From Caldicellulosiruptor obsidiansis OB47 (GTDB lineage: Bacteria > Bacillota > Thermoanaerobacteria > Caldicellulosiruptorales > Caldicellulosiruptoraceae): 64,000 nucleotides of DNA. The stretch is taken from positions 2,116,001 through 2,180,000 of the forward strand of contig NC_014392.1 in NCBI RefSeq assembly GCF_000145215.1, written 5' to 3'. Position numbers and translations under genes: made by a program. The notes beneath the pieces are model-generated. The model did no database searches. It was not told the DNA's origin and saw only the letters and a program-made list of their open reading frames with translations. Positions 36,295 through 37,812 of the stretch are shown piece by piece; position 1 is the stretch's first letter, and the number at the start of each line of letters is the position of its first letter.

Positions 36295-36303
36295 ACTTAT
36301 AAC

Positions 36304-36443
36304 AAAGCTGAATTCCTGTGGTAATATCCACAGGATAGGGGGGACCCACTTTTTTGGGGTGAATCAAGGCATCTTGCCTTGTAGGGCAAATATCCCTTTC
36401 TGCCCGAACCCGTCAGCTAACCCCCGAAGCTTTGAAAGGGAGG
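36304..36443 (+). promoter_or_regulatory. c-di-AMP (ydaO/yuaA-type) riboswitch
   Basis: The leader matches the conserved order of the ydaO RNA: GGGGGGACCCAC, TTGGGGTGAATC, a variable hairpin AAGGCATCTTGCCTT, GTAGGGC...GCCC, CGAACCCGTCAGCTAACC and a closing stem. AAAGCT (36304-36309) pairs with AGCTTT (36428-36433) as P1. The loop CCCTTTC (36394-36400) can pair with GAAAGGG (36434-36440), the known long-range pseudoknot. The ribosome-binding site AGGGAGG (36437-36443) overlaps that strand. These RNAs bind c-di-AMP and turn genes off. The next gene starts at 36454. Confidence 0.9.
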
Positions 36444-36453
36444 TTATTGTTTT

Positions 36454-37812
36454 ATGAATGTTAAGTTCAATCAAAAAACTCACATTCTCGAGATTGAGTA
36501 TCAGTTCAGAGATGTTGAAGAACCAAATCTTTTCAGGAACATCTACCCTTACAATGAGGTACCAAGGCTTGTTTTCAACCACAGAATTGTGCCAATGAAT
36601 GTTCCTGAGCGGCTTTACATCACAGACACAACCTTCAGAGACGGTCAGCAGTCGCGCTCGCCTTACACTATTGAACAAATCTGTAGAATTTATGACTACT
36701 TGCATGAGCTTGACAATGGAAGCGGTGTTATTCTTCACACAGAGTTTTTTGTCTACTCAAAGCAGGACAAGGAAGCAGTTTTAAAGTGTTTAGAAAAAGG
36801 ATATGATTTTCCAAAGGTGACTGCCTGGATTCGCGCAAAAAAGGAGGACTTTGAAATTGTAAAAAGCCTTGGTATCAAGGAAACAGGAATACTTGTCTCA
36901 TGTTCTGACTATCACATTTTCAAGAAACTAAGGATGACACGCAGTCAGGCATTGAAACAGTACTTAGAAATTGTATCGGCAGCTTTAGAGGCAGGAATAA
37001 TTCCAAGATGCCATTTTGAAGACATTACAAGAGCTGATTTTTACGGTTTTGTCCTTCCATTTATAAATGAGCTCATGAAACTTTCAAAAGAGGCAAATAT
37101 GCCTGTTAAAATCAGAGCTTGCGACACCTTAGGGCTTGGCTCACCCATCCCCGGTGTTGCTCTGCCAAGAAGTGTTCCGCAGATAATCTATGGAATCGTA
37201 AACTATGGTGAAGTGCCTTCTGAGTGGCTTGAGTGGCATGGTCACAACGATTTTTATAAGGCTGTGATAAACTCTACAATGGCATGGCTTTATGGTGCTT
37301 CAATGGTAAACACATCGCTTTTAGGAATAGGTGAGCGGACAGGCAACACTCCATTAGAAGCAATGGTAATGGAATACATTCAGATAAGAGGGTCAGCAGA
37401 TGGCATGAATGTTGCTGTCATCTCTGAGATTGCAGATTATTTCAAAAAAGAGATTGGATATGAGATCCCACCAATGACACCGTTTGTTGGTGACAACTTT
37501 AACGCAACACGAGCTGGAATTCATGCAGATGGACTTATGAAGGATGAGGAAATATATAACATCTTTGATACAGGAAAAATCTTAGGTAGACCTCCAAAGG
37601 TCATAATTGATGCCTACTCAGGCATTGCTGGAATTGTTATTTGGATAAACAGGTACTTCAAAGATAGCGGCATTGACGTACAGGTTGATAAAAAAGACCC
37701 AAGAGTTCAGAAGGTCAAAGAGTGGGTAGACAATCAATATGAAAATGGAAGAAATACATCTATAAGTGATGATGAGTTAAAAGAGGTTGTAAAAGAGGTA
37801 TTTGGAATATAA
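36454..37812 (+). CDS. DRE-TIM metallolyase-family synthase, candidate Re-citrate synthase
   Basis: A 452-residue enzyme of the isopropylmalate/homocitrate synthase family. The divalent-metal and substrate motifs are ITDTTFRDGQQSR near 60, the catalytic His/Glu region HFEDITRADF, and WHGHNDFYKA with the metal His pair; GERTGNTPLEA is also conserved. There is no C-terminal leucine-regulatory domain as in LeuA. The protein fits the anaerobe Re-citrate synthase type (oxaloacetate plus acetyl-CoA to citrate); homocitrate synthase is the main alternative. It is directly controlled by a c-di-AMP riboswitch, with AGGGAGG 10 bases before the ATG. Confidence 0.75.
   Translation: MNVKFNQKTHILEIEYQFRDVEEPNLFRNIYPYNEVPRLVFNHRIVPMNVPERLYITDTTFRDGQQSRSPYTIEQICRIYDYLHELDNGSGVILHTEFFVYSKQDKEAVLKCLEKGYDFPKVTAWIRAKKEDFEIVKSLGIKETGILVSCSDYHIFKKLRMTRSQALKQYLEIVSAALEAGIIPRCHFEDITRADFYGFVLPFINELMKLSKEANMPVKIRACDTLGLGSPIPGVALPRSVPQIIYGIVNYGEVPSEWLEWHGHNDFYKAVINSTMAWLYGASMVNTSLLGIGERTGNTPLEAMVMEYIQIRGSADGMNVAVISEIADYFKKEIGYEIPPMTPFVGDNFNATRAGIHADGLMKDEEIYNIFDTGKILGRPPKVIIDAYSGIAGIVIWINRYFKDSGIDVQVDKKDPRVQKVKEWVDNQYENGRNTSISDDELKEVVKEVFGI

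Follow-up and report, generated by a model that had tools for sequence, protein, structure and literature searches.

A c-di-AMP riboswitch precedes a candidate second Re-citrate synthase in Caldicellulosiruptor and may serve a beta-glutamate osmolyte regulon

Introduction

Wall hydrolases are classic targets of c-di-AMP riboswitches. An osmolyte gene, ablA of Dehalobacter, was also turned off by a c-di-AMP riboswitch when its response was measured in vitro (PMC9337991). High c-di-AMP reports a cell free of osmotic distress, and eam, an aminomutase gene, is named for beta-glutamate (PMC9337991), a known compatible solute (PMC1224877).

The DNA analysed here, referred to as the window, is a 64,000-nt stretch of the genome of Caldicellulosiruptor obsidiansis OB47, which is a single contig of 2.53 Mb and encodes a diadenylate cyclase domain. 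Caldicellulosiruptor species are heat-loving, plant-digesting bacteria. Their osmolarity sensitivity has been called an industrial bottleneck, and in C. owensensis and C. saccharolyticus no compatible-solute pathway was found beyond glutamate and proline (PMC8557575, PMC3003633); a beta-glutamate route would therefore be an overlooked pathway. At the locus described here a c-di-AMP riboswitch adjoins a gene for a candidate citrate-forming enzyme. We consider it likely that a second, dedicated Re-citrate synthase (Re-CS) is controlled at translation by this riboswitch, within a beta-glutamate osmolyte circuit.

Results

An RF00379 aptamer adjoins a synthase gene

The initial annotation had claimed a ydaO/yuaA-class c-di-AMP riboswitch upstream of the synthase gene and had proposed a covariance search, which bore the claim out. 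Rfam cmscan of the whole window yielded a significant match to RF00379 that covered all model positions from 1 to 134 and scored 96.2 bits against a gathering score of 38 (Table 1). The position first given, 36304-36456, denotes the same element but is shifted by about 8 nt. The 452-residue reading frame opens with an ATG that is 6 nt from where the model ends and 10 nt downstream of GGGAGG. A 3' pseudoknot with covariation, a mark of RF00379 membership, was found in the window aptamer. The element belongs to the Rfam c-di-AMP aptamer family as an ordinary member of a known riboswitch class, and it presumably binds c-di-AMP.

Table 1. Coordinates of the features discussed; numbers without a prefix are window positions.
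Feature	Position	Strand	Remarks
c-di-AMP riboswitch aptamer (ydaO/yuaA class)	36296..36447	+	RF00379, 96.2 bits, full length; E 1.7e-21, calculated for the whole 64,000-nt window
Aptamer loop UCCCUUUC, pseudoknot 5' strand	36393..36400	+	covarying pairing with 36434-36441
GAAAGGGAGG, pseudoknot 3' strand and Shine-Dalgarno site of the gene	36434..36443	+	10 nt before ATG
Candidate second Re-citrate synthase of the genome (452-aa DRE-TIM protein)	36454..37812	+	Pfam HMGL-like; 72% paralog; no PF00285 in genus
TnpB-type element	L064:2081-3559		G008:C1, between aptamer 504187-504341 and gene 501100-502455
Shortened NifV-like relatives	L030-L033; G007:C1:2309832, G006:C1:2200887, G001:C1:2200141, G005:C1:2006760, G008:C1:457086		
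Third RF00379 site of sister genus	G012:C3:97171-97306 (L214)		upstream of peptidoglycan-binding-domain-like protein L214:1336-2166 (-)

The pseudoknot overlaps the Shine-Dalgarno site

The aptamer loop UCCCUUUC pairs with GAAAGGGA, which is the Shine-Dalgarno region of the synthase gene. When 20 aptamers were aligned, 94.7% of the cells of this 8-pair pseudoknot were paired, compared with 80.2% in shuffled alignments and 43-70% in slid controls. Double changes numbered 21 versus 5.1 in the shuffles and were present at six of the eight pairs. The segment GAAAGGGAGG is identical in all genus leaders that still adjoin the synthase gene. We found no terminator between the aptamer and the synthase start codon, and a transcription terminator was rejected as the synthase expression platform because none fits in this gap. 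Translation is therefore the most likely level of control, with the bound aptamer masking the Shine-Dalgarno site.

The direction of switching was considered by computed folding of the leader. Computed for 37 C, the free leader sequesters the Shine-Dalgarno site within an alternative hairpin, AACCCCC:GGGAGGUU. This prediction would suit an ON switch in which c-di-AMP raises synthase translation. However, the computed stability of the hairpin falls from -7.6 to -0.5 kcal/mol at 75 C. At 60-75 C the minimum-energy fold was aptamer-like with the Shine-Dalgarno site unpaired, yet roughly half of the ensemble continued to pair that site at 70-75 C, so that leader folding alone leaves the direction unsettled. 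An ON switch is also at odds with the covarying pseudoknot, through which the aptamer fold would mask the Shine-Dalgarno site, with the terminators of the eam switches in both genera (see below) and with the off behaviour of this riboswitch class in the tested osmolyte case, ablA. We regard an ON switch as very improbable and infer instead that c-di-AMP lowers synthase expression.

The pairing of switch and synthase is a family trait

The survey of related genomes that the initial annotation had called for showed that the pairing is kept across the genus. A synthase orthologue and a leader aptamer were present in all 12 Caldicellulosiruptor genomes and directly adjoined each other in 11, where at most about 7 nt separate the model end of the aptamer from the start codon. 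In the twelfth genome (G008) the start codon has been separated from GGGAGGTT, the Shine-Dalgarno site, by an inserted IS200/IS605-like TnpB element; this insertion is a natural decoupling of switch and synthase. The arrangement recurs in 11 of 12 genomes, with an insertion in between in the other, and is not due to chance. Outside the family the aptamer was found at none of 103 related loci, which were searched with a regular expression that had a sensitivity of 32/32, and with Rfam in addition at 20 of the 103. The pairing is genus-wide but absent from these outside loci, indicating a family trait, and a riboswitch on Re-CS as a wide pattern was rejected.

A phylogenetic tree placed the switched synthases in one clade (13 genomes, 99% support) and those linked to aconitase in another (13 genomes), and the two clades were not sisters. 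A recent duplication of the synthase within the genus is not supported by this tree and was rejected. Since the switched copy is no recent duplicate of the housekeeping copy, a shift of substrate is possible. The nearest branches outside the switched clade are two genes from Actinomycetota MAGs (L127 and L128), neither of them near an aconitase gene, and the switched synthase may have originated by transfer. An attempt to group the aptamers of Re-CS, eam and NlpC by sequence was rejected as well; identities of 72-87% across targets are too close for descent to be read from them.

The synthase is a candidate Re-citrate synthase

The initial annotation had also described the gene product as a DRE-TIM synthase of candidate Re-CS type, and family matches, genome context and paralogy support that description. 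The only Pfam match of the window synthase was PF00682 (HMGL-like/DRE-TIM, 117 bits). None of the NCBIfam models for LeuA, NifV, CimA and related families matched it at or above cutoff; it scored 159 bits for the NifV equivalog (cutoff 463) and 110 bits for the LeuA equivalog (cutoff 598.7). The HxHND and GxGERxG motifs of DRE-TIM metallolyases, here HGHND (262-266) and GIGERTG (291-297), were invariant in the alignment, and the active-site motifs are identical in the window synthase and its aconitase-linked paralog. Si-citrate synthase (PF00285) was absent from all 12 Caldicellulosiruptor genomes but was detected in 13 of 14 controls.

The paralog, at G000:C1:552163, is 72% identical to the window synthase and has no RF00379 switch. 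It is followed by genes for aconitase (acn) and isocitrate dehydrogenase (icd), which were named from their sequences and from the matches of relatives rather than by a family scan. Among the 103 relatives an aconitase match lay within 4 kb in 40 and an isocitrate dehydrogenase match in 39; one or the other was nearby for 54 of the 103 as well as for the paralog, and the window synthase itself stands alone. This arrangement suggests that the unswitched paralog is the housekeeping copy and the switched gene a second copy.

Other members of the superfamily are accounted for separately. The true LeuA gene lies at G000:C1:541321-542799 (772 bits) and is adjoined by a CimA-like gene; as separate genes are present, isopropylmalate and citramalate synthase were rejected as identities of the window enzyme. 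A third DRE-TIM gene, 43-48% identical, occurs in exactly the nine genomes of the genus that bear nitrogenase, near nitrogenase genes, and is therefore the NifV candidate. Neither nitrogenase nor this third gene was found in the window genome, and a homocitrate synthase for nitrogenase was rejected on these grounds. The NifV-like relative is shortened (~320-350 aa) in exactly the nine nitrogenase-bearing genomes (Table 1). Two genomes, G002 and G007, carry an additional separate C-terminal fragment of the NifV-like gene, 64% identical, perhaps the remains of another copy.

The nearest solved chains to the window synthase are homocitrate, isopropylmalate and citramalate synthases. Residue R185 aligns with an arginine of the solved homocitrate synthase 6ktq to which we ascribe binding of the oxo acid's distal carboxylate, and the next two chains, an isopropylmalate and a citramalate synthase, have other residues at this position. 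R185 thus supports a dicarboxylic oxo acid as the probable substrate and does not separate oxaloacetate from 2-oxoglutarate. Another DRE-TIM synthase, whether for homocitrate, citramalate, isopropylmalate or a product of a new 2-oxo acid substrate, would agree with these nearest chains, with sequence models that place the window enzyme only in the broad superfamily and with the age and separateness of the switched clade in the tree. Such an identity is nevertheless improbable, given the separate LeuA and CimA-like genes, a NifV candidate that is found only with nitrogenase and is absent here, a paralog that adjoins acn and icd, and an R185 that fits a dicarboxylic oxo acid if the role assumed for the 6ktq arginine is correct. 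From genome context and paralogy, the window enzyme is very probably a Re-CS, for which citrate formation with Re stereochemistry is predicted.

Glutamate 2,3-aminomutase and a wall hydrolase share the riboswitch class

Each of the 12 genus genomes contains exactly three RF00379 sites. The targets in the window genome are the Re-CS candidate, glutamate 2,3-aminomutase (eam) and an SH3-NlpC/P60 hydrolase. The aminomutase is a KamA-family protein that scored 674.9 bits for TIGR04368 (curated cutoff 650) and 484 for lysine aminomutase, below the cutoff of 525. RF00379 lies directly upstream of eam in all 12 genomes. In the window genome eam is 38 kb from the synthase gene, just outside the window, and in most genus genomes examined the two genes are 38-70 kb apart with a separate switch each. 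In the sister genus (G012) a single aptamer and a strong intrinsic terminator are followed by an operon of eam and Re-CS, whose genes are 37 nt apart. The two functions are thus under a common switch in the sister genus and under separate switches in Caldicellulosiruptor. The third RF00379 target of the sister genus again looks wall-related (Table 1).

Terminators follow the eam aptamers of both genera. In the eam leader of the window genome a 17-pair terminator-like hairpin lies between aptamer and gene (L001:1403-1442, minus strand). The expression platforms of the two osmolyte genes thus seem to differ, with termination for eam and translation for the synthase. Of the 30 best-scoring eam loci in the phylum sample, 22 had RF00379 just upstream. 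Beyond the genus, at least 36 genomes from many genera of the phylum had it directly upstream of eam, as counted by matching coordinates by eye in a sample of 398 genomes.

Discussion

The regulon suggests how c-di-AMP could tie citrate synthesis to osmolyte supply. High c-di-AMP would signal the lack of osmotic stress and sufficient potassium; the bound aptamer would close the UCCCUUUC:GAAAGGGA pseudoknot and cover the Shine-Dalgarno site, which would prevent synthesis of the enzyme. A drop in c-di-AMP would free the site and allow the second synthase to form extra citrate from acetyl-CoA and oxaloacetate. Aconitase and isocitrate dehydrogenase of the housekeeping operon would carry this citrate to 2-oxoglutarate and on to glutamate. 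The second riboswitch, 38 kb away, would simultaneously release eam through its terminator, and from the extra glutamate the aminomutase would form beta-glutamate, a compatible solute. The wall hydrolase would be under the third switch. We think it more probable than not that the c-di-AMP regulon of the Caldicellulosiruptoraceae feeds a beta-glutamate osmolyte pathway from central carbon in this way, through a switched Re-CS and a switched eam. Members of the genus would then be expected to accumulate beta-glutamate. Their osmosensitivity speaks against this reading, as does a literature search that returned no report of beta-glutamate for this genus.

Switch and Re-CS could both be real and yet serve ordinary glutamate supply, eam being a parallel target and not part of the same pathway. 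L-glutamate might be required as a potassium counter-ion, or the 2-oxoglutarate branch might be tuned as with pyruvate carboxylase, which c-di-AMP limits in some bacteria (PMC8822347). That synthase and eam have separate switches and lie 38-70 kb apart in most of the genomes examined would fit such parallel control. The single switched eam/Re-CS operon of the sister genus speaks against it, as does the lack of a switch on the aconitase-linked synthase, and we consider ordinary glutamate supply unlikely. As control of the synthase is shared with eam, osmolyte supply is preferred over general control of the TCA branch. The initial annotation had proposed that c-di-AMP reaches citrate synthesis by RNA control, at the same point as through pyruvate carboxylase; the RNA link is supported by the computational evidence, and the likeness to pyruvate carboxylase is refined toward osmolyte supply by the eam partner, which that annotation had missed.

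If correct, the beta-glutamate circuit would for the first time connect c-di-AMP to citrate synthesis at the level of RNA, and would reveal a compatible solute that has been overlooked in the genus. The regulon offers a candidate beta-glutamate pathway complete with genes and a signal, and the targets of c-di-AMP riboswitches would gain an enzyme of central carbon metabolism. Glutamate aminomutase emerges as a frequent target of this riboswitch class across the phylum.

The window aptamer shares with other RF00379 riboswitches the full conserved core, the pseudoknot and the length, and the same genome has a wall-hydrolase target. It differs in its own target, a candidate citrate-forming enzyme; a citrate synthase was not found as a target of c-di-AMP riboswitches in the open-access literature searched, and the supplements of Nelson 2013 may list eam or the synthase. 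The tandem of Na+ and c-di-AMP aptamers on ablA of Dehalobacter sp. CF (PMC9337991) has in common with the present case the control of a beta-amino-acid osmolyte enzyme by c-di-AMP and the osmotic logic. In Dehalobacter, however, ablA encodes lysine 2,3-aminomutase, a Na+ aptamer stands in tandem and control is by termination, whereas in Caldicellulosiruptor the targets are eam and a carbon-supply enzyme, no Na+ aptamer was seen and control of the synthase is probably translational. Like the Re-citrate synthases of Clostridium kluyveri and Heliomicrobium modesticaldum (HM1_2993; PMC12016533), the window enzyme is a DRE-TIM protein from an organism with no Si-citrate synthase and with separate LeuA/NifV genes, a likeness of superfamily and gene content. 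Unlike them, it is one of two copies per genome, of which one is controlled by a riboswitch. Finally, the inhibition of pyruvate carboxylase by c-di-AMP, direct or via DarB in B. subtilis, likewise intervenes where carbon enters the synthesis of citrate and glutamate (PMC8822347). There an anaplerotic step is inhibited at the protein level, whereas here a candidate citrate synthase would be controlled by RNA.
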